A stretch of 64,000 nucleotides of DNA, taken from NCBI GenBank assembly GCA_015061465.1, contig SUWN01000003.1:1-64000 (forward strand). Reading direction: 5' to 3'. A model generated the notes under the pieces. That model saw nothing but the letters and a program-made list of their open reading frames with translations. It was not told where the DNA came from and did not search any database. Shown in pieces: positions 15,094-42,969 of this stretch. The first letter of the stretch is position 1; each line of letters begins with the position of its first letter. The DNA comes from Treponema bryantii. GTDB taxonomy: Bacteria > Spirochaetota > Spirochaetia > Treponematales > Treponemataceae. Both the position numbers and the translations under genes were made by a program.

Positions 15094-17043
15094 TTATTCA
15101 CCTTTTTCCAATTCTTCTATTTCTTTGAGCCAAACATTTGCGCTTGAATCTGTTGGCATTGTCCAACTTCCTCTTGGAGACAAACTTCCAAAACCAACGC
15201 TTATTCCATCAGGCATACAAGAACGTTTGAATTGTTGTGTAAAAAATCTTCTATAAAATATTTTGAGCCATTTGATTTTTTCTGCGCGTGAATATTTTAA
15301 ATCTGATTGTTCTGCAAGAAACAAAATTTTTGAAGGTGAAAATCCATATTTTAAAACATAATACAAATAAAAATCGTGCAATTCATAGGGACCTACAAGA
15401 TTTTCTGTTTTTTGAGAAATATTTCCTTCTTCTGGAGGTAGCAATTCCGGGCTCACTGGAGTTTCCAAAATATCGATTAAAACATCGCCCAAATCGTTTT
15501 TGTTATTTGATTTTGCATCTTGAGCAAACCAATTTACCAAATAGCGCATGAAGGTTTTTGGAATTCCTGCATTTACACCATACATTGACATATGGTCGCC
15601 ATTGTAAGTACACCAACCAAGTGCCAATTCAGATAAATCGCCAGTTCCAATTACAATTCCGTTTATTTTATTTGCAAAATCCATCAAAACTTGTGTTCGT
15701 TCTCTCGCCTGTGAATTTTCGTAAGTTACATCATGAACTTTTTCATCCTGGCCAATATCCTGAAAATGCATTTTTACACTTTGCGAAATATTGATTTCTT
15801 TAAGAGTTGTGCCACATTCATTTGCAAGTTTACACGCATTATTATAAGTTCTGTCCGTTGTTCCAAAACATGGCATTGTAATTGAATAAATGGATTTTCT
15901 AGGCAAATTGCACAAATCAAAAGCCATTGTTGTAATTAATAAAGCCAATGTTGAATCCAATCCGCCAGAAAGTCCAATCACTGCACTTTTGCAATTTGTA
16001 TGTTTTAATCTTTTTGCCAAAGCATTTGCCTGCATTTTTACAACTTGCAAACATCGTTCATTACATTCATCAATATTTTGCGGAATAAATGGAGAAGAAG
16101 GAATTTTTCTGTCCAATTGTGGATTTTTTTTGTTTGAAATATCAACTTGAATTTTTAAGAAGGAATCTTTATCTTCATTTTGAGGAAAATCTTCAAACTG
16201 ATTTTTTTGTCGCTCTAAAGCTAAAAGTCCCACATCAATATCCGAATAAAGAATTTGATTTTCGTATAGATTTGATTCTGCCAAAAGTTCGCCGTTTTCG
16301 TAAATTAATTTGGAAGAAGAAAAAACGACTTCTTGTGTAGATTCCGCATTTGACGCAGAAGAAAACAAATATGCACAACAACATTTTTTACTTTGTGTTT
16401 GAATCATATTTTTTCTAAAATTCTGTCTGTCAATTTTTTCTGCATCTGCGGCAAGATTCACAATGATATTTGCACCGTTTTTTACTTGCAAAACAGATGG
16501 CGCATTCATCATAAATAAATCTTGTCCAAGTTCACATCCAACTGCAAAATCGGAATTTGTTTTATCAGTAAAAATAATGTTATTTCCAAAAGGAACATTT
16601 TGGATTTTTTCATCGATTGAAATATAAATATTTTGATTTTTAGAAAATTTGCTAAATTGTCTTGCCTGATTAAAAACGTCGTAAGAAAGAATATTTGATT
16701 TAGGAATAAAAGCCAAGATTTCACCTTTGTATAAAGCACACGCACAATCATAAAGGCAATTATTTACACTTAAAGGCAATCCTACAAAAATAAGCGCGTT
16801 TACAGATTTTGTATTTTTTGCAATGTATAACAAAGATTGAATTGCTTGATTTTGTAAAGTTTTTTGAAAAAATAAATCACCACAAGAAAAACCTGTTATG
16901 CTTAATTCTGGAAAAACAATCAAAGAAGCGCCTTTTTTATTTGCGTTCTTTACATTTAAAATAATTTGTTCTGCATTGTAAAAACAATCAGCAACAACTA
17001 AATCTGGCGATACACAAGCCACTTTAAAAAAATCATAATTCAT
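15094..17043 (-). CDS. nadE: glutamine-dependent NAD+ synthetase
   Basis: Nitrilase domain (FPELSITGF) plus synthetase SGGLDSTLALLI, GTGDLSELALGWCTYNGDHMSMYGVNAGIPKT. Confidence 0.95.
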   Translation of the reverse strand: MNYDFFKVACVSPDLVVADCFYNAEQIILNVKNANKKGASLIVFPELSITGFSCGDLFFQKTLQNQAIQSLLYIAKNTKSVNALIFVGLPLSVNNCLYDCACALYKGEILAFIPKSNILSYDVFNQARQFSKFSKNQNIYISIDEKIQNVPFGNNIIFTDKTNSDFAVGCELGQDLFMMNAPSVLQVKNGANIIVNLAADAEKIDRQNFRKNMIQTQSKKCCCAYLFSSASNAESTQEVVFSSSKLIYENGELLAESNLYENQILYSDIDVGLLALERQKNQFEDFPQNEDKDSFLKIQVDISNKKNPQLDRKIPSSPFIPQNIDECNERCLQVVKMQANALAKRLKHTNCKSAVIGLSGGLDSTLALLITTMAFDLCNLPRKSIYSITMPCFGTTDRTYNNACKLANECGTTLKEINISQSVKMHFQDIGQDEKVHDVTYENSQARERTQVLMDFANKINGIVIGTGDLSELALGWCTYNGDHMSMYGVNAGIPKTFMRYLVNWFAQDAKSNNKNDLGDVLIDILETPVSPELLPPEEGNISQKTENLVGPYELHDFYLYYVLKYGFSPSKILFLAEQSDLKYSRAEKIKWLKIFYRRFFTQQFKRSCMPDGISVGFGSLSPRGSWTMPTDSSANVWLKEIEELEKGE

Positions 17044-28335: not shown

Positions 28336-30735
28336 ATGGAAACTTCTCCTGCCAACAAGTTTACAGACGGTAAAGTTCACATCAAAGGTAATATTCCAAG
28401 CCGCGATAAAGGTAAACGTTGCGACTATGTTCTCTGGTATAACAAAGGAACCCCTTTAGCAATTGTAGAAGCAAAAGATAACAATAAATCTTCTTCTTAT
28501 GGAATGCAGCAGGCAATCACTTATGGAATTATGATGAATGTTCCATTTGTTTATACTTCTAATGGTGACAGTTTTTTTGAGCATGACTTTACAACTGGTC
28601 TTGAAAGAGAGCTTCCACTTTCTGAATTTCCAACAGCTGACGAACTTATGGCCCGCTGGCGTGGAGTAAATGCAGAAAAGATAGTAGAAGTTGAAAACCG
28701 CATGGAATATGCAATCGATGGTAATACTAAGTTTTATGATGTTCCTCTTTGTTTTGAAGAGAACCTTATGAACACACCTTTTTATTCTGGAGCAGATTGT
28801 TATCCACCTCGTTATTATCAGCGTAATGCTGTAAACAGAACTCTTGAAGCAATTGCAAAACAGCAGGCTCGTATTCTGATTGCAATGGCTACAGGAACTG
28901 GAAAAACTTATACAGCCTTTCAGATTGTCTGGCGTTTGATTGAATCAGGAACAAAAAAGAAAGTTCTTTATCTGGCAGACAGAAATAATCTTGTGGATCA
29001 GTCTATTCAGCAGGACTTTAAACCTCTTGAAAAAGTAATTCACAAAATCAATTTTCAAAAAGAAGATAAATCTAAAATCTCTGCTTATCAGGTTTATTTT
29101 GCGTTATATCAGCAGTTAGATTCTGCAAAGCATCATGATGAAGATGAAGAAGAAACAGAAGAAGAAATTGAACTCGAGGTTTCAAAATATAAAGAATTCT
29201 TCACTCCTGATTTCTTTGATTTGATTATTGTTGATGAGTGTCACCGCGGTTCTGCAAAGGCTGATTCTCGATGGCGTAAGATTCTTGAATATTTTACTGG
29301 TGCAACACAAATTGGTATGACCGCAACTCCAAAGGAAACAAAATATGTTTCGAATATTGATTATTTTGGAGAGCCTGTTTATTCATACAGTTTAAAACAG
29401 GGAATTGAAGACGGATTCCTTGCTCCGTTCAAAGTAATTAATGTTCATACAAATATAGATGACGGCTGGCGACCAAAAAAAGGTCAAAAAGATATTCACG
29501 GTAACGAAATTGAAGACCGTGAATATAATCTTTCCGATTATGATTACAACATCATTATTCAAGACAGAATTGATGAGGTTGCAGCGGAAATTACAAAGTA
29601 TTTGAAAGAAACAGACCGTATGTCTAAAACGATTGTATTCTGTCCTACCGAAGATGCAGCAGACAGAATGCGAGTTACACTGAACAATTTGAATACCGAC
29701 ATGGTCCTAAAAGATAACCAGGGAAATGTAAAGGAACAATATGTTGTTCGCATTACAGGAAGTGATAAATATGGAAAAGATAAACTTGATTATTTTATTT
29801 CTGTTTCACAGCCTTATCCTGTAATTGCAACGACTTCAAAACTGCTTTCTACCGGTAGTGACTGTAAAATGGTAAAACTTATAGTCATTGATGAACTTAT
29901 TAATTCAATGACTGAGTTTAAGCAGATTATCGGCCGTGGTACACGACTTCGCTATGATGATGGAAAAACTCATTTTACAATTATGGACTTCCGCAGAGTG
30001 AGTCGTTTATTTGCTGATCCTGACTGGGATGGTGAAATTGAACAAGATGAAGATTTTGATCCAAATCCAGAACCTAAAATTCCTCCTGAATCAAAAGAAC
30101 CATCTGATGATACAGATGACGGTGGTGATGGCCCTGTTATTGTAGATCCTCCTGTGCCAAATCCAAAACCAATTATTGGAAAAGGTCAAATCAAAGTAGA
30201 TGTTCTTCAGCGTTTAGTTTCGATTTATGATACAGACGGAAAACTATTGAAACAGGAATCTATTGAAGATTATACAAAAGAAAGTATTCTTGGAACTTAC
30301 CAGACATTGGAAAACTTTATTCAGACCTGGAACGGTGAACAGAAAAAAGAAATCATCCGCAATATGCTTAAAGAAAAAGGTATTGACCTTGAACTGATTA
30401 AGAAAGACCAGAACATGACTGATGTAGATGACTTTGATTTTATCTGTCATATAGCATTTAATCAAAAGCCACTGACTAGACGAGAGCGTGCTGAAAATGT
30501 AAAGAAAAGAGACATCTTTGGAAAATACGGTGAAGCAGCTCGCGAAATAATTAATGCGCTTTTGGATAAATATGCTGAACTTGGCATTTATGATATTGAA
30601 TCAACAGAGATTCTTAAACAGAATCCATTTACTAAATATGGAAAACCAGCTCGTATTGCTGCATTGTTTGGTGGAAGTGATAAATACCGCGCCGCACTGA
30701 AAGAACTTGAGAACGAATTGTATAAGGTGGCGTAA
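28336..30735 (+). CDS. hsdR: Type I restriction enzyme R subunit (main ORF; probably frameshifted at N terminus)
   Basis: Nuclease motif CDYVLWYNKGTPLAIVEAKDN; helicase ATGTGKTYTAFQI, VDECHRG, MTATP, IIGRGTRLR. Confidence 0.93.
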   Translation: METSPANKFTDGKVHIKGNIPSRDKGKRCDYVLWYNKGTPLAIVEAKDNNKSSSYGMQQAITYGIMMNVPFVYTSNGDSFFEHDFTTGLERELPLSEFPTADELMARWRGVNAEKIVEVENRMEYAIDGNTKFYDVPLCFEENLMNTPFYSGADCYPPRYYQRNAVNRTLEAIAKQQARILIAMATGTGKTYTAFQIVWRLIESGTKKKVLYLADRNNLVDQSIQQDFKPLEKVIHKINFQKEDKSKISAYQVYFALYQQLDSAKHHDEDEEETEEEIELEVSKYKEFFTPDFFDLIIVDECHRGSAKADSRWRKILEYFTGATQIGMTATPKETKYVSNIDYFGEPVYSYSLKQGIEDGFLAPFKVINVHTNIDDGWRPKKGQKDIHGNEIEDREYNLSDYDYNIIIQDRIDEVAAEITKYLKETDRMSKTIVFCPTEDAADRMRVTLNNLNTDMVLKDNQGNVKEQYVVRITGSDKYGKDKLDYFISVSQPYPVIATTSKLLSTGSDCKMVKLIVIDELINSMTEFKQIIGRGTRLRYDDGKTHFTIMDFRRVSRLFADPDWDGEIEQDEDFDPNPEPKIPPESKEPSDDTDDGGDGPVIVDPPVPNPKPIIGKGQIKVDVLQRLVSIYDTDGKLLKQESIEDYTKESILGTYQTLENFIQTWNGEQKKEIIRNMLKEKGIDLELIKKDQNMTDVDDFDFICHIAFNQKPLTRRERAENVKKRDIFGKYGEAAREIINALLDKYAELGIYDIESTEILKQNPFTKYGKPARIAALFGGSDKYRAALKELENELYKVA

Positions 30736-31530
30736 ATGGGAGCAAAAGAATTAAAAGCAGCGATTTTACAGGAAGCGGTGTCTGGAAAACTCGTACCGCA
30801 GATAGCCAGCGAAGGAAACGCGCGGGATTTGCTGGAAGAAATTAGGAAAGAAAAACTGTCACACGGATTGGATTTTGCTAACGCAAAATCTGGAAAGAAG
30901 AAATCCAAAAAAGAGACAGCGTTAGCTGGCTCGAATCCGTGTGACATTACAGAAGATGAAATTCCCTTTGATATTCCAGAAAGCTGGTGTTGGTGTAGAT
31001 TGGGAGAGGTTTTTCAGCATAATACAGGAAAAACACAGAATTCCTCTGTTGTAACAAAAAACGGAACTCTAAGAAAATTTATAACGACATCGAATCTTTA
31101 TTGGAATGAATTTGATTTTTCAAAAGTAAAAGAAATGCTGTTTTCAGATTCGGAATTAGAACGTTGTACAGTTACAAAAGGTGATTTACTCGTTTGTGAA
31201 GGTGGAGATTATGGTCGTTCTGCTATTTGGAAATATGACTATGATGTATGTTTTCAAAATCATATTCACAGGCTTCGTCCTTTTAAGAAAGAAACACTGT
31301 GTATAGAGTTTTATTATTATGTTTTATTTATTTTCAAGAATAAAGGTTTTATTCAAGGCAAAGGAGTTGGTATAAAAAGTCTTTCAACTGAAACCCTACA
31401 TCAAGTTTTAATTCCTCTTCCTCCCCTTGCCGAACAAAAACGCATTGTCGCTGCTCTGGAAAAGTTCATGCCACTGTTTGAGCAATATGAGCAGAAGGAA
31501 AAGGAACTGGCAAATCTTTTGCTGAGGTAG
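30736..31530 (+). CDS. hsdS: Type I restriction specificity subunit, half-length (single TRD)
   Basis: ILQEAVSGKLVPQIASEGNARDLLEEI…ENP-type TRD…LIPLPPLAEQKRIVAALEKF; 264 aa. Confidence 0.88.
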   Translation: MGAKELKAAILQEAVSGKLVPQIASEGNARDLLEEIRKEKLSHGLDFANAKSGKKKSKKETALAGSNPCDITEDEIPFDIPESWCWCRLGEVFQHNTGKTQNSSVVTKNGTLRKFITTSNLYWNEFDFSKVKEMLFSDSELERCTVTKGDLLVCEGGDYGRSAIWKYDYDVCFQNHIHRLRPFKKETLCIEFYYYVLFIFKNKGFIQGKGVGIKSLSTETLHQVLIPLPPLAEQKRIVAALEKFMPLFEQYEQKEKELANLLLR

Positions 31531-31536
31531 GAATCT

Positions 31537-32547
31537 ATGCAGAATGAACTTGTAAAACAAATATCATACATTTTCTACACAAGCGCGGAGGAAGATGTAA
31601 AAATCAACGCGCTGGTAAAGGACGAATCAATATGGCTTACGCAAAAAGCCATGGCAGAGCTTTTTGATTGCTCTGCTGATAATATCAGTCTGCATCTAAA
31701 AAATATATATGAGACTGGCGAATTGGAAAAAAATCGAACCGCCGAGGAAATCTCGGCAGTTCAAAAGGAAGGAAATCGCTCCGTAAAACGAAATCTCACA
31801 TTCTATAATCTTGATGCAATCATTTCGGTTGGTTACAGAGTAAATTCTGCAAAGGCAACAAAATTCCGCATCTGGGCGACAAATGTTCTGAAGGAATACA
31901 TAAAAAAAGGCTTTGTTCTTGACGAAGACCGACTGAAGCAGGGCGAAAATGTTTTCGGAAAAGATTACTTTCGTGAGTTGCTGGAAAAAGTCCGCTCAAT
32001 TCGTGCAAGTGAACGTAGAATCTGGCAGCAAATAACGGATATTTTTGCAGAATGTTCAGTTGATTATGACAAAAACTCAGAAATTACGAAGCAATTCTAT
32101 GCAACTGTTCAAAATAAATTTCATTTTGCCATAACAGGGCAGACAGCGGCAGAAATCGTCTATGACAGGGCTGACCACAAAAAAGACCACATGGGTCTGA
32201 CAACGTGGAAAAATTCTCCTGACGGCAGAGTTTTAAAAAGCGACGTAAATATCGCGAAAAACTACCTTTCAGAAAAACAGATTAGGCAATTGGAGCGGGC
32301 TGTCAGCGGCTATTTTGATTACATAGAAGATTTGATTGAGCGGGAAATTCCCTTCGATATGAAAAGTTTTGCATCAAGTGTAAACGAATTTTTGGAATTC
32401 AGGAAATACGATATTCTTGATGGTAAGGGAAGGATTTCAAGAACACAGGCAGATGAAAAAGCCTTTGGAGAATACAAAATTTTTAATAGAACCCAAAAAA
32501 TCACTTCTGATTTTGATAAAATGATAAAGCAATTGGAGACAAAATAA
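31537..32547 (+). CDS. RhuM-family protein
   Basis: ESIWLTQKAMAELFDCSADNISLHLKNIYETGEL…VKRNLTFYNLDAIISVGYRVNSAKATKFRIWATNVLKEYIKKGFVLDEDRL. Confidence 0.9.
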   Translation: MQNELVKQISYIFYTSAEEDVKINALVKDESIWLTQKAMAELFDCSADNISLHLKNIYETGELEKNRTAEEISAVQKEGNRSVKRNLTFYNLDAIISVGYRVNSAKATKFRIWATNVLKEYIKKGFVLDEDRLKQGENVFGKDYFRELLEKVRSIRASERRIWQQITDIFAECSVDYDKNSEITKQFYATVQNKFHFAITGQTAAEIVYDRADHKKDHMGLTTWKNSPDGRVLKSDVNIAKNYLSEKQIRQLERAVSGYFDYIEDLIEREIPFDMKSFASSVNEFLEFRKYDILDGKGRISRTQADEKAFGEYKIFNRTQKITSDFDKMIKQLETK

Positions 32548-32548
32548 C

Positions 32549-34051
32549 ATGAGCAACTTAAGTAGTTTTGTAAAACGCATTCGCGATGTAATGCGCAATG
32601 ATGCCGGTATTAACGGTGATGCACAGAGAATTGAACAGATAGCCTGGATGCTTTTCTTAAAAGTATATGACGCTAAAGAAGAAGACTGGGAATTTGAAGA
32701 TGAAAAATATGAATCAATAATCCCGGAAGAACTTCGCTGGCGTATCTGGGCTCATACTGAAAATCAAGGTGATGGACTTACCGGCGACAAGCTCTTAAAC
32801 TTTGTAAATAATAAGCTTTTCCCAACCTTAAAAAATCTTGAAATCTCTCCTGATACTCCAATCCGCCAGAGCATTGTGCGTACAACTTTTGAAGATGCAA
32901 ACAACTACATGAAAGACGGTGTTCTTCTCCGCCAGATTGCAAATATAATAGATGAACTTGATTTTGGAAGCTACGAAGAAACACATGCCTTTGGAGAAAT
33001 CTACGAAACAATTCTTAAAGAGCTTCAGAGTGCAGGTAGTGCCGGTGAATTCTATACACCACGTGCCGTTACTCAGTTTATGGCAAAAATGATTAAGCCT
33101 CAGATTGGCGAAACAATGGCAGACTTTGCCTGTGGTACTGGAGGATTCCTTTCCAGCTGGATAAAAGAACTTGAAGAAGTAAAAGACGCTAAAGGCAGCA
33201 TTTCAAACGAAGAATCAGAAAAAATCTATAACTCAATTTATGCAGTAGAGAAAAAGCAGTTCCCTTACATGCTTTGTGTCACAAATATGCTTTTACATGG
33301 TCTGGATAGCCCAAAAGTTTATCACGGAAACTCTCTCATTTATAAACTTTTGGACTATACTCAGAAAGATGCCTTTGATGTAATTCTTATGAATCCACCA
33401 TACGGCGGAAGCGAAAAAGACGACATTAAACAGAACTTTCCGGCCGATTTGCGTTCGAGCGAAACTGCCGATTTGTTTATGGCAGTTATCATGTACCGCC
33501 TTAAGAAAGAAGGTCGTGCAGCTGTAATTGTTCCAGATGGATTTTTATTTGGAAACGATAATGCAAAGAATAATCTTAAGAAAAAGCTTCTTACAGATTT
33601 TAATCTTCACACAATAATTCGTTTACCAGGAAGTGTATTCAGCCCGTACACAAGCATTACAACAAACATTCTTTTCTTTAATAATGAAGAACCAACAGGA
33701 AAGACATGGTTCTACCGTGTAGACATACCAAGCGACCGTAAACACTTTAGCAAAACAAAGCCGATGGAACTAAAGCACTTTGACGACTGCATTGCCTGGT
33801 GGAATAACCGCAAGGAAATTACAGACGCAGAAGGAAATCCAAAAGCAAAATACTACACCGCACAGGAACTTATTGATTCAAATTACAATTTTGATGTATG
33901 CGGCTATCCTCACGAAGAAGAAGAAATCTTGAGCGTTGCAGAAACAATTCAGAATTACGAAGAAAAGCGTACAAAGCTTAATGCCGATATAGACAATATT
34001 CTTGCACAGATTACTGAACTTCATCAGAAAGCTCAGAAAGGGGAATTGTAG
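32549..34051 (+). CDS. hsdM: Type I DNA methyltransferase M subunit
   Basis: SAGEFYTPRAVTQFM, DFACGTGGFLSSW, ILMNPPYGG. Confidence 0.95.
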   Translation: MSNLSSFVKRIRDVMRNDAGINGDAQRIEQIAWMLFLKVYDAKEEDWEFEDEKYESIIPEELRWRIWAHTENQGDGLTGDKLLNFVNNKLFPTLKNLEISPDTPIRQSIVRTTFEDANNYMKDGVLLRQIANIIDELDFGSYEETHAFGEIYETILKELQSAGSAGEFYTPRAVTQFMAKMIKPQIGETMADFACGTGGFLSSWIKELEEVKDAKGSISNEESEKIYNSIYAVEKKQFPYMLCVTNMLLHGLDSPKVYHGNSLIYKLLDYTQKDAFDVILMNPPYGGSEKDDIKQNFPADLRSSETADLFMAVIMYRLKKEGRAAVIVPDGFLFGNDNAKNNLKKKLLTDFNLHTIIRLPGSVFSPYTSITTNILFFNNEEPTGKTWFYRVDIPSDRKHFSKTKPMELKHFDDCIAWWNNRKEITDAEGNPKAKYYTAQELIDSNYNFDVCGYPHEEEEILSVAETIQNYEEKRTKLNADIDNILAQITELHQKAQKGEL

Positions 34052-34060
34052 GAGAAAATT

Positions 34061-34930
34061 ATGGAAAAAACAGTAAAAGAAACAATTCATGCACAGGGAA
34101 TAGAAATTGGCATTTACACAACAGATTTTGAAAATGAGTTTATTTCTCTTACAGATATTGCAAAATATCGTAATGAAGATGACCCACGTTTTGTAATTCA
34201 AAACTGGATGCGAAATCGTAATACAATAGAATTTCTTGGGGTTTGGGAAACTTTACATAATCCAAGTTTTAACCGTGTGCAATTCGACACGGTTAAAAAT
34301 GAAGCTGGTGCAAACCGTTTTGTTATGACTCCAACTAAATGGATTGAACAGACAAATGCAATAGGTATTGTCTCAAAAGCAGGCCGTTATGGAGGGGGAA
34401 CTTTTGCACATACAGATATAGCAATGTCATTTGCAACCTGGCTTTCTCCTGAATTCCAGCTTTATATAATGAAAGATTATCGAAGATTAAAATCTGATGA
34501 AAATTCTCGTCTTTCATTAAACTGGAATCTTAACCGGGAACTTTCTAAACTCAATTACAAAATCCACACAGATGCCATTAAAGAAAATCTCATAATCCCG
34601 GAACTTACACCTGCCCAAAAATCTTTCGTTTATGCCGACGAAGCTGATTTGCTGAACGTGGCGTTATTTGGAATGACTGCAAAAGAATGGCGAAAGGGCA
34701 ATCCCGGCAAAAAAGGAAACATCCGCGATTATACAGACTTACATCATCTTCTAGTCCTTGCCAATCTTGAAAGTTATAACGCTATTCTTATAGAACAAAA
34801 TATCGGGCAGCCTCAACGTTTGGAAATGTTACGGGAAACGGCTCTTAAACAACTTAGAACAATTCAAGCCCTTGATTTTTCATCCTCAAAAATTCTGACC
34901 ATTTCCGATAAAGCAGAGGAAGCAAAATGA
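34061..34930 (+). CDS. KilA-N domain protein
   Basis: FISLTDIAKYRNEDDPRFVIQNWMRNRNTIEFLGVWE…GGTFAHTDIAMSFATWLSPEFQLYIMKDYRRLK. Confidence 0.88.
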   Translation: MEKTVKETIHAQGIEIGIYTTDFENEFISLTDIAKYRNEDDPRFVIQNWMRNRNTIEFLGVWETLHNPSFNRVQFDTVKNEAGANRFVMTPTKWIEQTNAIGIVSKAGRYGGGTFAHTDIAMSFATWLSPEFQLYIMKDYRRLKSDENSRLSLNWNLNRELSKLNYKIHTDAIKENLIIPELTPAQKSFVYADEADLLNVALFGMTAKEWRKGNPGKKGNIRDYTDLHHLLVLANLESYNAILIEQNIGQPQRLEMLRETALKQLRTIQALDFSSSKILTISDKAEEAK

Positions 34931-36483
34931 CCGCAAAGGATTTGAAAAACGCACTTTTACAGGAAGCGGTGCAAGGTAAATTAGTTCCTCAAATAGCAAG
35001 CGAAGGGAATGCAAGAGATTTACTGGAAGAAATACGAAAAGAAAGAGGGGAAAGCCTTCCCCTCGCTCCAGTTCGCAAGCGATCTTCCGCTACCCCTTCT
35101 GCGGGCTCAAACGCCGCCCGCAACGCCCGCTTTGCTCCAATTACAGAAGATGAAATACCGTTTGATATTCCAGAAAACTGGTGCTGGTGTAGATTAGGAG
35201 AAATTTGTAATGAAATTAAAAGAGGAAAATCACCAAAATACGCTGATAAAAGTAATTTCTTAGCATTTGCTCAAAAATGTAATGTCAAAACCGGCGGAAT
35301 TGATTTAAGTCTTGCGTTGTATCTTGATGAAAACTCAATTGGAAGATATTCAGAAGCAGATAATCTTATTCAAGACGATATAGTTATCAATTCAACAGGT
35401 GGTGGAACTATGGGGCGTGTCGGATTGTACGAAACAAAAGTTCCTGCTGGAATAAAGGGAGTTTATCCAGATAGCCATGTTACTGTTATTCGTTCCATTG
35501 GCAACATCAATCAACATTATCTTTATTACGTTCTAAAATTAAACCAACCTGTATTGGAAAAGAATGGAACTGGTTCTACAAATCAGACTGAACTAAAACC
35601 AGCAGTTCTTGCTGATTTTGTTATTCCTCTTCCTCCCCTTTCTGAACAAAAACGCATAGTTGCTGCACTTGAAAAGTTCATTCCGCTCATAGAAGAATAC
35701 GGCAAAAAAGAAACAGAACTCAAAGCCCTTAATGAACAAATCGGCACACTCACAAAAAAAGCAATCCTGCAGGAAGCCGTTCAGGGAAAAATTGTTCCAC
35801 AAATTGTCGCTGAAGGAAACGCAAAAGATTTACTGGAAGAAATAAAGAAAGAAAAAGCAAAAGTCGCTGGCAAAGCCAGCTCAACGAGTTTTGCAAGCAA
35901 AACTCGCTCAAAAGAATTTCCGCCCATCACAGACGATGAAATTCCTTTTGATATTCCAGAGAATTGGTGTTGGTGTAGATTGGGAGAAATTGTTAATTAT
36001 AAAATGGGAAAAACACCTCCTAGAGCTGAATCAGAATGGTGGGGAACCAAAGAAGATACACCATGGATTTCAATTGCAGATATGGTTGCTGATGGTCATA
36101 TAAATAAAACAAAAGAGTTTATGTCAAAGAAAGCTATCAAGGAAGTTTTTAATAATGCTGTTTCCAAAGCAGGAACTCTAATAATGAGTTTTAAACTAAC
36201 AGTTGGAAGAGTTTCTATTCTGGATATTGATGCTACCCACAATGAGGCAATTATTTCAATTTATCCTTATATTGATAATGATAACATCACAAGAAATTAT
36301 TTATTTAAATTACTACCTTTATTATCACAAAATGGAGATGCTAAAGATGCTATTAAAGGAAGAACATTAAATTCGACAAGTTTATCTAATATGATTATAC
36401 CATTACCACCACTTGCTGAACAAAAACGTATAGTGGCTGCAATTGAAAAAATGCTTCCATTGTGCGAAAAGCTTGGAGAATAA
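34927..36483 (+). CDS. hsdS: Type I restriction specificity subunit (two TRDs)
   Basis: Two TRD/conserved-repeat units each ending LPPL(S/A)EQKRIVAA; 518 aa. Confidence 0.92.
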   Translation: MTAKDLKNALLQEAVQGKLVPQIASEGNARDLLEEIRKERGESLPLAPVRKRSSATPSAGSNAARNARFAPITEDEIPFDIPENWCWCRLGEICNEIKRGKSPKYADKSNFLAFAQKCNVKTGGIDLSLALYLDENSIGRYSEADNLIQDDIVINSTGGGTMGRVGLYETKVPAGIKGVYPDSHVTVIRSIGNINQHYLYYVLKLNQPVLEKNGTGSTNQTELKPAVLADFVIPLPPLSEQKRIVAALEKFIPLIEEYGKKETELKALNEQIGTLTKKAILQEAVQGKIVPQIVAEGNAKDLLEEIKKEKAKVAGKASSTSFASKTRSKEFPPITDDEIPFDIPENWCWCRLGEIVNYKMGKTPPRAESEWWGTKEDTPWISIADMVADGHINKTKEFMSKKAIKEVFNNAVSKAGTLIMSFKLTVGRVSILDIDATHNEAIISIYPYIDNDNITRNYLFKLLPLLSQNGDAKDAIKGRTLNSTSLSNMIIPLPPLAEQKRIVAAIEKMLPLCEKLGE

Positions 36484-36486
36484 ATT

Positions 36487-37272
36487 ATGGATACAGAACA
36501 ATGTACTGAAATTACAAATAATTCAACACCTTTACGACAAGGAGATATTCTATATTTTTATGAAAACCAAGATGATGAAAAATATGGAATTGTTGTGACA
36601 GGAGATTGCGATATTGCTAGGAAAAAATGTCGAAGAATTATTTCCTATTGTACTATTACAACTGCAAAATTTTATCTTGCTACAGAAGTAATGTATGATG
36701 AATTTTTATCAAAGGAAATCAATAAGCTTGAAGAATCAGTGCTAAAAAATGTTTATAGAAAATTAAACGCTGAAAAATCGGAGACCTTTCTTTCAACATT
36801 ACTCAGTCTGGAATTAGATTACTTAATCAATTTATTAAAAGATAAAGATCTAATAACAAAAATAGAATTCCTAAAGTCAATCAAGGGTAAATCTGTATAT
36901 TCTATGGCAGATTGTATTAATATATATAAAATGAATACTAATAAAAATACTGTTACTGATGAAGAAATAAAGAAAATTAAAGGCAAATTTTTATCGAAAT
37001 TAGGTTCATTACCTGGCGATAAATATTATATTAGCGAAATACCAAATCAAAATGATAATTACGGTTATATAGTTCACTTAAGATTTATAAATACGATATC
37101 ACAAGATGATATTGCAAATCAAAATGGTTTATATCGTATCGGACATTTAGATGCACCGTATCTATATAAATTGACTCAAAAATTAGGTGCCGTTTTTTCA
37201 GATATTGGTGAACCTGAAGAATTTGAAAAGAACAGGACTGAAATAAATAATATTCTTATTAAGGAGTTATGA
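36487..37272 (+). CDS. uncharacterised protein with 'GIVVTGDCDIARKK' motif
   Basis: ATG 4 nt after hsdS stop; RQGDILYFYENQDDEKYGIVVTGDCDIARKKCRRIISYC; no family confidently recognised. Confidence 0.75.
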   Translation: MDTEQCTEITNNSTPLRQGDILYFYENQDDEKYGIVVTGDCDIARKKCRRIISYCTITTAKFYLATEVMYDEFLSKEINKLEESVLKNVYRKLNAEKSETFLSTLLSLELDYLINLLKDKDLITKIEFLKSIKGKSVYSMADCINIYKMNTNKNTVTDEEIKKIKGKFLSKLGSLPGDKYYISEIPNQNDNYGYIVHLRFINTISQDDIANQNGLYRIGHLDAPYLYKLTQKLGAVFSDIGEPEEFEKNRTEINNILIKEL

Positions 37273-37273
37273 G

Positions 37274-39445
37274 ATGAAAAATTTGGTATTAACAGAACAA
37301 TCAATATTATTAGTGGCAAATACAATAAACGAGACTGTTTTAAAAAATAATGAATTTCAAAATTCTGATAAATATTATAAAATATCTATATCCGATGAAA
37401 CGGATGTTATTCTTTCGGGAAAGTCAAAGGATTCTCATATACAAACACTGCCTTTTATAATTATAGATAAATGTTTTTTTGATGCATTTTGCAATAACTA
37501 TAATATTATTTCAGATGCATTGTTGGAAATACAAAGTCTTGTTGTAAGATATAATCAAAATCATAATTTACTTGGCTATATTCCTTCGAAAGCATTTTGT
37601 AAAAACAATCGCATAGTTTTAAACGTTGATAAATACCATATATTTATAATAGTTAATACAAATCAGACCGGAGCTTTCTTTGTTTTTAATGTAACAACTT
37701 CTAAAAATGAGCGCATTGAAGATGCAACTCCAAATATGGACTTATTTGATTCTGTATTAAATTCTCGTACAACTATTGAGGATTTATATAATAAACAAAA
37801 AACAGAACGAAAAGTTTTAGTAGAAGACGATATAAAATTTGATTTATATTTTAATGATGAGCAACAAAGAGCTTATACTTATGAGGATTGGGTAAAGCAT
37901 TTATCGCATTTGCAATCTGCATTCTTAAGTAAACCTGCCGAAAAGGCTATTAAACTACGGGGGCCTGCTGGAACTGGAAAAACTTTGGCTATGGAGCTTA
38001 AAGCGATAAAATTGATAAGAGAACATCCAGAATCAAGGATTCTTTTTACTTGTCATAGTTGGGCTGTTGCTTGTCAAGTCAGTGATTTTATCAGCAATTT
38101 GGATTATGAAGCTGGAACTAAAATTGATGCTTTCCCCTTGCTTTCGTTAGCAGAAAGTAAAGTCCCTATTGGAGATTATGACACTTTAATACTGGGAGAT
38201 GACAGCTATAGTGGAAAAATTGAACAAATAAAAATCTTGAATGAAATAATTCTTGAATATCAAAAAAGTGATTGGAAATTATTACAGGCAAAATGTTCAA
38301 AAGAATTTAGAGATCAATTTAATTCTATCTCAGATGTTAACAAAAATTTTACATGGGATATTATGATTGAAATTACATGCATTATTATGGCTAATGGATT
38401 TAAACCAATTCAAACAGATAAAGAAAAATATTTTGAACTTGAGCGTAGAAATTGGATGATTGCATTAAATTCTAAAACAGAAAAAGAAATTATTTTTAAT
38501 ATTTATGAAAAGTTAATATATAAACTAAATGCAGAAGGAAAAATAACCTCAGATCAGATTATTAACGATTATATAAATATACTAACTATGTTTACATGGT
38601 TTAGGGCAAGAAAAAATGAAGGCTATGATTATATTTTTGTAGACGAAATGCAATTGTTTAATGCACAGGAAAAAGCTGTTCTTCAATATTTAACTAGAGA
38701 TCCTCAAAAGTATCCTGTATTAATAATGGCAATGGATCCAAAACAATCTGTTGATGAAGTTTATTCAGAATACGGAGTAACCGATGTATTTAAAGGTATG
38801 AACCCAGAAATAGAAAAGGAACTTGGGAACCCTGTTGATATTTGTCTTACAGAAGCTTATAGATATACTAAACAAATATTGAAATTCTTAAAACATATAG
38901 ATTCTTCCTATCCTACACTTGATTTTGGAGAAGATTGGAATAACAAAATACGAACTATTTCTTCAAATCAAGAAGACGGGATTCTACCTAAATTCTATTA
39001 TTGCAAAAATAAGCACGATGAGATAAAAATGGCAATTAATAAAGCCAAAGAATTATCTGGAAGTACAAGGGTTGCAATACTTTCATTACAAGATGATTTA
39101 TTTACCTTTTTAATAGAAGAAACAAAAAAAGATTGTGATTTTAAGTTAATTGATTCTTCAAAAGTTACACATACTCTTAAACATGTAAGAAGAAATGTAT
39201 TTATTAGTAAACCATCATATGTTATTGGTTTACAATTCGAAGTCATTATTTTAGTTGGTTGCTACAGTATTTATAATGAGAATGCTCCAAATCAAAGTGG
39301 ATATAAACGAAGGTTTTTAAATGATTTATATTTAGGTGCCAGTAGAGCTAAAAAAGATTTGTATTTATATAGTAATAAAGAAGCCATTGCTATTCCAGAT
39401 GTTATAAAAACTGCATTGGATAATAAACTTCTTATACAAAAATAA
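37274..39445 (+). CDS. SF1/UvrD-like helicase/NTPase with unrecognised N-terminal domain
   Basis: Walker A KLRGPAGTGKTLAMELKA; Walker B DYIFVDEMQLF; AMDPKQSV; C-terminal VIGLQFEVIILVG and LYLGASRAKKDLYLY. Confidence 0.85.
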   Translation: MKNLVLTEQSILLVANTINETVLKNNEFQNSDKYYKISISDETDVILSGKSKDSHIQTLPFIIIDKCFFDAFCNNYNIISDALLEIQSLVVRYNQNHNLLGYIPSKAFCKNNRIVLNVDKYHIFIIVNTNQTGAFFVFNVTTSKNERIEDATPNMDLFDSVLNSRTTIEDLYNKQKTERKVLVEDDIKFDLYFNDEQQRAYTYEDWVKHLSHLQSAFLSKPAEKAIKLRGPAGTGKTLAMELKAIKLIREHPESRILFTCHSWAVACQVSDFISNLDYEAGTKIDAFPLLSLAESKVPIGDYDTLILGDDSYSGKIEQIKILNEIILEYQKSDWKLLQAKCSKEFRDQFNSISDVNKNFTWDIMIEITCIIMANGFKPIQTDKEKYFELERRNWMIALNSKTEKEIIFNIYEKLIYKLNAEGKITSDQIINDYINILTMFTWFRARKNEGYDYIFVDEMQLFNAQEKAVLQYLTRDPQKYPVLIMAMDPKQSVDEVYSEYGVTDVFKGMNPEIEKELGNPVDICLTEAYRYTKQILKFLKHIDSSYPTLDFGEDWNNKIRTISSNQEDGILPKFYYCKNKHDEIKMAINKAKELSGSTRVAILSLQDDLFTFLIEETKKDCDFKLIDSSKVTHTLKHVRRNVFISKPSYVIGLQFEVIILVGCYSIYNENAPNQSGYKRRFLNDLYLGASRAKKDLYLYSNKEAIAIPDVIKTALDNKLLIQK

Positions 39446-39454
39446 TACAAAAAT

Positions 39455-40378
39455 ATGGACCAAAAATTCCTAAAACGCTTTATTTCAGAATGTCCTCTTA
39501 CAGATTTTTCGGAAAACGGAAACATTACTGAAAGACAATTACAGCTTGATGAATATTTAGAACAATTCACAAACTTCCTTTATGCAAATGAAAATAAACT
39601 TATTCAACATTTCTGGCAAGAATATATTGCATCTTCAGAAATTGGATTACTCCAGAATTCAGAAATGCTCAGAAGGTGTTTTATTTTTCTGGATTGTGCT
39701 GCTGCAATTTATAACTATACGGCAAGAAAAAGCAAAGGTAAAAAGAACTCTCAAATTGCAGAACATATTTCTGTTCAGTTGCAAAATGATTTGAATCAAT
39801 ATAAAAGTATTCTGCTTCTTGCAATGAATGGCTGCTTTAATAGTGTGATTGTTGAATATCGTTCTCTATATGAAAGTTTTGTAATAGGACAGTATCTTGT
39901 TCAGAATCCAGACTTAGTTCCTGTTTATAAAGACCATCTTCAATTTCTTAGATATCATCTTACTCAGCTTGTTGGAAACAGCACACCGGAATGGGATAAA
40001 ATACACGATGATTATTTGAATAAATACGGGAAAGAGTTTGCAGAAAACTATGGCTGGACCAAAAGCAAAATTCCGAATAAAAAAGATAGAAAAATTGGAA
40101 CTTTGGCAAAAGAATGTAATTTGGAAAATTCATTCACCGTTCTATACAAGTATTCTAGTAGTTATGTTCATTCTTCGGCCTTTTCAGTATCGACGAGACC
40201 AGATTTATCTCAGATAAAAATATTCTTTCAGGTTGCTATGCACTTTATAAAATCAGAGATAACAGATTATCTTCGAGAAAGCAAGCTACCTGCAAAAGAT
40301 GAAGTTATTATGCGGAATATTCTGGTATTTTTATATCAGGATTTTGAAAAACTAGATAAAACAAATAATTCAATTTAA
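39455..40378 (+). CDS. DUF5677-like protein
   Basis: SVIVEYRSLYESFVIGQYL … LYKYSSSYVHSSAFSVSTRP resembles DUF5677-type helical proteins. Confidence 0.6.
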   Translation: MDQKFLKRFISECPLTDFSENGNITERQLQLDEYLEQFTNFLYANENKLIQHFWQEYIASSEIGLLQNSEMLRRCFIFLDCAAAIYNYTARKSKGKKNSQIAEHISVQLQNDLNQYKSILLLAMNGCFNSVIVEYRSLYESFVIGQYLVQNPDLVPVYKDHLQFLRYHLTQLVGNSTPEWDKIHDDYLNKYGKEFAENYGWTKSKIPNKKDRKIGTLAKECNLENSFTVLYKYSSSYVHSSAFSVSTRPDLSQIKIFFQVAMHFIKSEITDYLRESKLPAKDEVIMRNILVFLYQDFEKLDKTNNSI

Positions 40379-40406: not shown

Positions 40407-40946
40407 ATGTCTAACCTAAAACTAATCCACGGCAGTTGTGCCGATCAAACAGCAGATGCAGTTGTAAATGCTGCAAACTCAGGACTCTGGGAAGGCGGTG
40501 GCATCTGTGGCGTTATTTTTAGTAAATGCGGTCCTAAGGAATTAGCACAGGAATGTTCAAATTATCAAACTCCAATAAAGGATGGAAACGCAGTAATCAC
40601 ATCTGCCTGTAAGATGAAGAATGCAAAATACATTATACATGCAGTTGGTCCAGATTTCAGACAAACTCCAAAAGCCTTTCTTGAACTGTTTAATGCTTAT
40701 TACAATTCACTTGTGCTTTTGAAAGATAATAATTTACACAGTATCTCTTTTCCGCTAATCAGTTCAGGAATTTTTGCAGGAAACCTTCCTAATCCTGCAG
40801 AAGAATCAGCTAAACAGTGCTGCAGGGCTTATAAAAAATTCATTCAGGACTATCCTGAGTATGATATTGATGTTCTGCTTTGTGCATTTACCTCCGCAGA
40901 ATATAATGCTGCAAAAACTATATTCAATAATATAGAAAACAAATAG
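40407..40946 (+). CDS. macro-domain protein (ADP-ribose-binding/hydrolase)
   Basis: LIHGSCADQTADAVVNAANSGLWEGGGICGVIF; ISFPLISSGIFAG. Confidence 0.93.
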   Translation: MSNLKLIHGSCADQTADAVVNAANSGLWEGGGICGVIFSKCGPKELAQECSNYQTPIKDGNAVITSACKMKNAKYIIHAVGPDFRQTPKAFLELFNAYYNSLVLLKDNNLHSISFPLISSGIFAGNLPNPAEESAKQCCRAYKKFIQDYPEYDIDVLLCAFTSAEYNAAKTIFNNIENK

Positions 40947-42129: not shown

Positions 42130-42969
42130 CTATTTTCCATTCATTATAACATTAAAAATTCTAAAATTAGAATCATCTCGTGGCGAACAATAAATTGCAA
42201 ATTCAATTGTTTCGAACGTATACTTAAATTCTTCTATTAATTTTTTATACGCACGAGCAACAACTTCAGGATTATTCATAAAAGCACCACACCCAAAAGC
42301 CCCTAGAATTACAACTTCATTTTTATTTGCCGCCGCAGTTTCTAAAATCTTTCTTCCACGTTTTATATGGATTTGTTCTAGTTCATCATCTGAAATCTTT
42401 GCAGTACTATTTCCATCACCAGAATTAAACGCATTGCTTGGACGTTCCCTAAGATTAGGCGCTGCACAAGTAATCACATTAACTTTTTTCCATTTATTTT
42501 CTGGCAAAAGACGTGGATAATTTGTATCAGATTTAAAAATCACCACATTAGGAGTATAAATCAAATCATCGTTATGAATAGGATTTGCATCACGCCTATG
42601 AGGTATATAAAAGTTTTTCCACATAAAATCTTCTGTAAGATTATAATAAAGGGTTGAACATCGACAAAGACTTTCTTCCTGAGCCGAAGAACCATTTACA
42701 ACTCCTCCCCCAGGGGTACTCGCCGATGCAAAATTCAACACTGCAACATTCTTGCCATCATACCCCATCGACGCTTCAAATGTTCTCTTTTTTGAAACAA
42801 TAATGTTTGCAGATTTTTCGTAAATCTGTTTTTCAAAAGCCACCGATTCATTTTCTAAAATCAACTTTTGTAATTTTGAAGACGATTTCCACGCCTGAAT
42901 CAAAAGCGGGTTTGTCTTACATAATTTTTCCGTATCTTGAAATATTTCTTTATTTTCTTCTCTACTCAT
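42130..42969 (-). CDS. TIGR02452-family PARG-like protein
   Basis: NTSA-type core VAVLNFASASTPGGGVVNGSSAQEESLCRCSTLY; VVILGAFGCGAFMNNPEVVA. Confidence 0.9.
   Translation of the reverse strand: MSREENKEIFQDTEKLCKTNPLLIQAWKSSSKLQKLILENESVAFEKQIYEKSANIIVSKKRTFEASMGYDGKNVAVLNFASASTPGGGVVNGSSAQEESLCRCSTLYYNLTEDFMWKNFYIPHRRDANPIHNDDLIYTPNVVIFKSDTNYPRLLPENKWKKVNVITCAAPNLRERPSNAFNSGDGNSTAKISDDELEQIHIKRGRKILETAAANKNEVVILGAFGCGAFMNNPEVVARAYKKLIEEFKYTFETIEFAIYCSPRDDSNFRIFNVIMNGK

Follow-up and report, generated by a model that had tools for sequence, protein, structure and literature searches.

Two closely packed genes behind the specificity gene of a type I restriction-modification (RM) operon in Treponema bryantii, here called A and B, pose the question of whether they serve restriction or constitute an anti-phage module of their own. 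They lie in the window, the 64,000-nucleotide stretch of contig SUWN01000003.1 analysed here, which belongs to a draft genome of 2.06 Mb. The surrounding RM operon (28336-36483) comprises hsdR, hsdM and two hsdS genes, one half-size (264 aa) and one of 518 aa, together with the cargo genes RhuM (PDC-S05) and KilA-N (PDC-S22, 429 bits). The relevant features are the following:

34927-36483, plus strand: hsdS, 518 aa, directly upstream of A; part of the host operon, outside the conserved module.
36487-37272, plus strand: gene A, 261 aa; predicted MazF/PemK-like beta-barrel split by a helical insert.
36664-37008, plus strand: helical insert of A, residues ~60-174, from AlphaFold2 secondary structure; fast-evolving part of the protein.
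37274-39445, plus strand: gene B, 723 aa; UvrD/PcrA/Rep-like SF1A helicase.
39455-40378, plus strand: DUF5677 gene, beginning 9 nt after B.
40407-40946: macro-domain gene, after the DUF5677 gene.

Three nucleotides separate the hsdS stop from the ATG of A, and a single one the stop of A from the ATG of B. The close spacing noted by the sequence-only reading is confirmed, while its counts of 4 and 2 nt prove to be start-to-stop distances rather than gaps. The DUF5677 gene is a local passenger, present beside B in the window and at L005, the sister locus in Treponema, and missing from the third Treponema locus, L045; it and the macro-domain gene are left out of the module because the other loci lack them. 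Near the latter, the gene at 42130-42969 on the minus strand is one that we take, by eye, to be of the macro/PARG type (TIGR02452-like).

The earlier reading had staked its proposal on homologues of the two genes being adjacent elsewhere, and they are. Plasmid, phage and IMG/VR searches gave 18 distinct loci in which A immediately precedes B on the same strand, the spacing ranging from a short overlap to a gap of about 13 nt. Most of these loci were recovered with B as the sole query, A being used where possible. The 17-row alignment of A contains no stretch conserved enough for a pattern scan, the alignments of B did better, and an A-based single-protein pattern scan of viral contigs gave no match. 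Carriers include Treponema (the window, L005 and L045), Alpha- and Betaproteobacteria, E. coli plasmids, phages and prophages. Plasmids bearing the pair come from Agrobacterium, Undibacterium, Paraburkholderia, Leisingera, Rhizobium (where B is reduced to a fragment) and E. coli. Phage records hold a single relative, present as two records, and two lambda-type prophages (L018 and L021) have RusA on one side of the pair and the O/P replication genes on the other. Copies of B with no visible A are confined to contig edges and IS-cut genes: in three IMG/VR loci (L023-L025) B begins at the contig edge, so that A cannot be seen, and on one E. coli plasmid IS1 lies directly before a shortened B.

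Protein identity between branches is ~20-30% for the pair, which marks the pairing as an old association; among named relatives, the one nearest to A comes from an uncultured Treponema. Three of 200 genomes of the host genus carry both genes, and a phylum sample of 393 genomes yielded no further one. Among 5426 E. coli genomes the pair occurs in 113, in every case on a plasmid and never on the chromosome.

Protein A, in which the sequence-only reading recognised no family, likewise matches none in Pfam, NCBIfam, PADLOC or PHROGs. PDB sequence searches with A and B gave chance matches only, and PF02452 matched neither A nor its homologues at E<=1. Residues Q18, G19, C41, D42, R199, Q231 and G241 are invariant in all 17 non-identical homologues, and the segment GDILYF...GIVVTGDCDIARKK, singled out earlier as conserved-looking, is present and forms the most conserved N-terminal part of the protein. 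An AlphaFold2 model built on ten alignment rows (pLDDT 84.4, pTM 0.72) contains strands at residues 20-24, 33-36, 51-59, 179-182, 194-205 and 215-221, a helical block at 60-173 and C-terminal helices. In this model, residues of about 15-59 and 175-245 are predicted to form a barrel, with a helical insert of ~115 residues between the two segments. When the model is compared with the PDB by Foldseek, ranks 1-26 are all MazF chains (probability 0.35-1.0, with 25 of 26 at 0.84 or above; TM-score by target 0.58-0.75 for 25 of 26). The accompanying E values of 0.03-0.43 we attribute to the insert. Among viral structures, the top BFVD match of the model is labelled 'PemK-like'.

Profile comparison points in the same direction. 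With the insert cut from the A alignment and insert-less short homologues added, the A core scores 24.7 against 70 MazF/PemK ORFs of relatives over 98-103 collinear columns, above each of 200 shuffles (mean scores 11-13, maximum 19.5). In the alignment, QGDI of A falls on RGEI, GIVVT on the strand-2 segment of MazF, and VVxLRxI on its VIxxDQI strand. A small MazF profile of 11 ORFs gave no signal against A; the signal appeared once the 70 ORFs and the short homologues were used. The similarity is remote, with an hhalign probability for A against MazF/PemK of 9% and Foldseek E values of 0.03-0.5, and the claim is therefore one of a MazF-like fold with probable remote kinship, not of family membership. 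A is thus probably a MazF-like barrel as judged from its model, homology beyond fold likeness being less than certain.

The barrel also occurs in other settings. A profile search finds short A-like proteins of ~180-200 aa with the signature 'QGDI..CDL..RVGLP' in Spirochaetota (L030, L031, L032 and L079); these match no Pfam or PADLOC family, and their profile compares with the A core at 99% (E 1e-19). In L030-L032 their neighbours are, by eye, presumably TIGR04255-like. An A-like domain stands behind a response regulator, beside a histidine-kinase fragment, in L033 (463-1704). A Hymenobacter plasmid island encodes an A-like protein (L081, 4339-5496) that has a histidine kinase on one side and DUF3883/ATPase/Z1 genes on the other; Vsr and Dcm are located upstream.

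MazF enzymes rely for catalysis on an Arg before strand 2 and a Thr or Ser at the end of strand 3. In a tentative alignment these sites fall at positions of about 32-33 and 58-59 of A, which vary among homologues, and the apparent loss of the canonical residues speaks against ordinary MazF cleavage by A. Judged from the fold, as far as the model goes, A would act on nucleic acid or on a gyrase-like target. A thus shares with MazF/PemK mRNA interferases the predicted barrel and a collinear strand alignment by profile, but differs from them in its long insert, its own invariant C-D, R and Q, its unconserved catalytic positions and in having a helicase as partner instead of a small antitoxin.

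These differences also weigh on the idea that A and B are a toxin-antitoxin-like addiction pair, with A as a MazF-type toxin and B as the restraining partner, serving plasmid or prophage stability. The predicted fold of A and the frequent location of the pair on plasmids or prophages agree with such a role, yet we regard it as unlikely, given the unconserved catalytic positions and the size of B, a 2.2-kb SF1 helicase that would be an unusual antitoxin. E. coli plasmids (L083-L088), moreover, contain single-gene frameshifts in both directions: on some a recurring frameshifted A (WP_024130014/WP_024130013) accompanies an intact B, and on others B is frameshifted next to an intact A, with one B in three pieces. 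Neither gene, then, obviously needs the other, a weak argument against a toxin-antitoxin relationship, and the frameshifted copies may be sequencing errors.

The second protein is more readily placed. B was described earlier as an SF1 helicase following an unrecognised N-terminal region, and that description holds: residues 222-493 match UvrD-helicase PF00580 (E 4.7e-9; 36.8 bits against a cut-off of 23), the C-terminus is UvrD_C_2-like, and residues 1-202 have no Pfam match. The motifs comprise Walker A GPAGTGKT (230-237), the motif II DE (457-458), D488/Q491, R530, G652 and R691, and the complete SF1A set (Walker A, DE box, motifs III-VI) is invariant in a 12-row alignment. Because its catalytic motif residues are unchanged in these 12 sequences, B very likely has ATPase activity. 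The structural model is weak (pLDDT 71) and its N-terminal ~200 residues are poorly modelled; its top structural matches are PcrA, UvrD and Rep, with E values down to 1.8e-18.

The surroundings of the pair speak to its possible role. In the Klebsiella P2-like phage ST16-OXA48phi5.4 it is flanked by the portal gene and the gpA-like replication-nickase gene, and the gpA/portal site of P2-like phages is an anti-phage hotspot (Rousset et al., PMC9122126). A P4-like satellite (L026) has the order integrase, A, B, Psu-like gene and P4-type primase, and the int-psu site of P4 is the other anti-phage hotspot described in that study. In G019, the third Treponema genome, the neighbours of the pair are Avs4 (1273 bits, PDLC02169) and a DUF1016-type gene; in L022 it follows an integrase and a DUF262 gene matching PD-T4-2_A and NsnA. 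On two Agrobacterium plasmids and one from Undibacterium (L009-L011) it is found near multiubiquitin/ThiF/DUF6527 operons, an operon type for which literature searches found no paper. The pair recurs, in sum, in defence hotspots and islands and on mobile elements, which is a consistent association with defence and not proof of function.

A separate observation concerns the L018 prophage, which also carries, at 15436-16904, a Ser/Thr kinase (PD-T4-6/mad6-like) and a 246-aa protein with a weak PDC-M21C match; these two are possibly a second defence-type pair.

The resemblance of B to PcrA/UvrD would equally suit a UvrD/Rep-like helicase of repair or of plasmid or phage replication, regulated by A, and some loci do lie near imuA/imuB/dnaE2 or umuC remnants. 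Such a housekeeping role is improbable for a pair so patchily present, which in several hotspots occupies sites shared interchangeably with defence genes and has defence-type neighbours; the host genome, moreover, has other UvrD-family matches much stronger than B. That A and B are an accessory of type I RM, aiding HsdR translocation or targeting modified phage, has in its favour the close linkage of the pair to hsdS at two loci, the window and L005, but is very unlikely, as 16 of the 18 loci, including the third Treponema genome with its Avs4 neighbour, have no adjoining hsd genes and the same RM operon hosts other cargo (RhuM, KilA-N and, among the further cargo in L005, a 351-aa protein).

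The earlier suggestion of an RM-associated effector is thus not supported, the hsd link being confined to two Treponema operons. The companion proposal, of an accessory anti-phage module that stands alone, agrees with the genomic setting of RM-free loci, hotspots and Avs4, from which we infer a defence role.

Among the closest described systems, Gabija is likewise a cassette of two genes, the second of which encodes an SF1A UvrD-like helicase, and the GajB profile gives weak matches to B (32.7 bits, E 7.7e-9, a partial match over residues 398-546) and to its E. coli homologue (E 2.7e-14). The partner, however, is a 261-aa protein of predicted MazF fold, whereas GajA is an ABC-ATPase/TOPRIM OLD nuclease, and B has an extra N-terminal region of ~200 aa. 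The absence of GajA remarked on before extends from the window to all relatives read: no GajA-type OLD nuclease lies next to B, A has no nuclease match in Pfam or PADLOC, and the single OLD-like TOPRIM match in the host genome is on another contig. The Helicase + DUF2290 system (Rousset 2022, PMC9122126) resembles the pair in combining a helicase with one further gene and in being of the type found in P4/P2 hotspots but differs in its partner, A having no DUF2290 match in Pfam. AbiO, Nhi and NERD+UvrD resemble the pair through weak profile matches to B homologues, although their models cover parts of the helicase core only. No A-like protein is found among the PADLOC models. The pair is closest in kind to helicase-plus-partner systems and new in its partner.

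A further peculiarity is that A diverges unevenly. Between the window and L005, protein identity is 96% for B, 89-90% for the barrel of A and 48% for the insert. Sliding nucleotide identity falls to 0.53-0.72 at 36667-37026 and stands at 0.98-1.00 at the A-B border; within the aligned stretch, equally deep dips occur elsewhere in hsdS only, largely in its target-recognition regions. The insert is also less identical than the barrel in all ten pairs compared; in the other nine, some of which share a member, the barrel roughly tracks B. For the Treponema insert dN is 0.45 and dS 1.22, against a dS of about 0.5 in the flanks. This raised dS suggests, from a single close pair, that the insert was swapped with a diverged allele. 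Fast divergence of the insert may, on the other hand, reflect relaxed constraint rather than contact with a changing target.

We favour, and hold to be reasonably likely, the reading of A and B as a mobile anti-phage candidate system of two genes, in which B would be the sensor and motor and A either the effector or an adaptor, with its insert as a variable part for recognition. Carriage on mobile elements and at anti-phage sites gives the pair the look of an unnamed two-part defence system. It is real and conserved, and probably a defence module outside the libraries used (PADLOC 2.0.0, 2023). Literature searches, with partial journal coverage, turned up no paper describing it, and a recent name may exist, the PADLOC copy being from 2023.

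GajB is reported to sense DNA ends and to promote its partner (PMC10952713). By analogy, the most likely role of B is to sense the DNA of an invader or to move along it, and to switch A. In the mechanism proposed here, the two proteins would form a complex, and B would be an ATP-driven SF1A DNA translocase engaging unusual invader DNA, whether ends or intermediates of replication, in the way reported for GajB. The ATP cycle of B on phage DNA, the presumed trigger, would then switch A, whose barrel would have been retained with its canonical RNase residues replaced by an invariant set of its own. Once switched, the barrel would act on nucleic acid or on a host machine and thereby stop infection, and the helical insert may contact a variable partner.

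A more far-reaching form of this proposal is possible, though doubtful. A would be a helicase-controlled, non-canonical effector whose recombining insert is an exchangeable recognition cassette comparable to the target-recognition domains of HsdS, encoded in the same operon. The bare barrel would be a widespread unnamed defence domain, occurring also stand-alone by TIGR04255-like proteins and in response-regulator fusions.

The pair is short and cloneable, and its presence on E. coli plasmids, in a Klebsiella P2-like phage and in a P4-like satellite means that laboratory strains can be used to test it immediately. The unequal divergence along A provides a direct handle on the part that possibly meets the phage. 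If confirmed, the system would add a MazF-fold partner to helicase-led defence systems and would be an example of a toxin fold rebuilt for conditional use.
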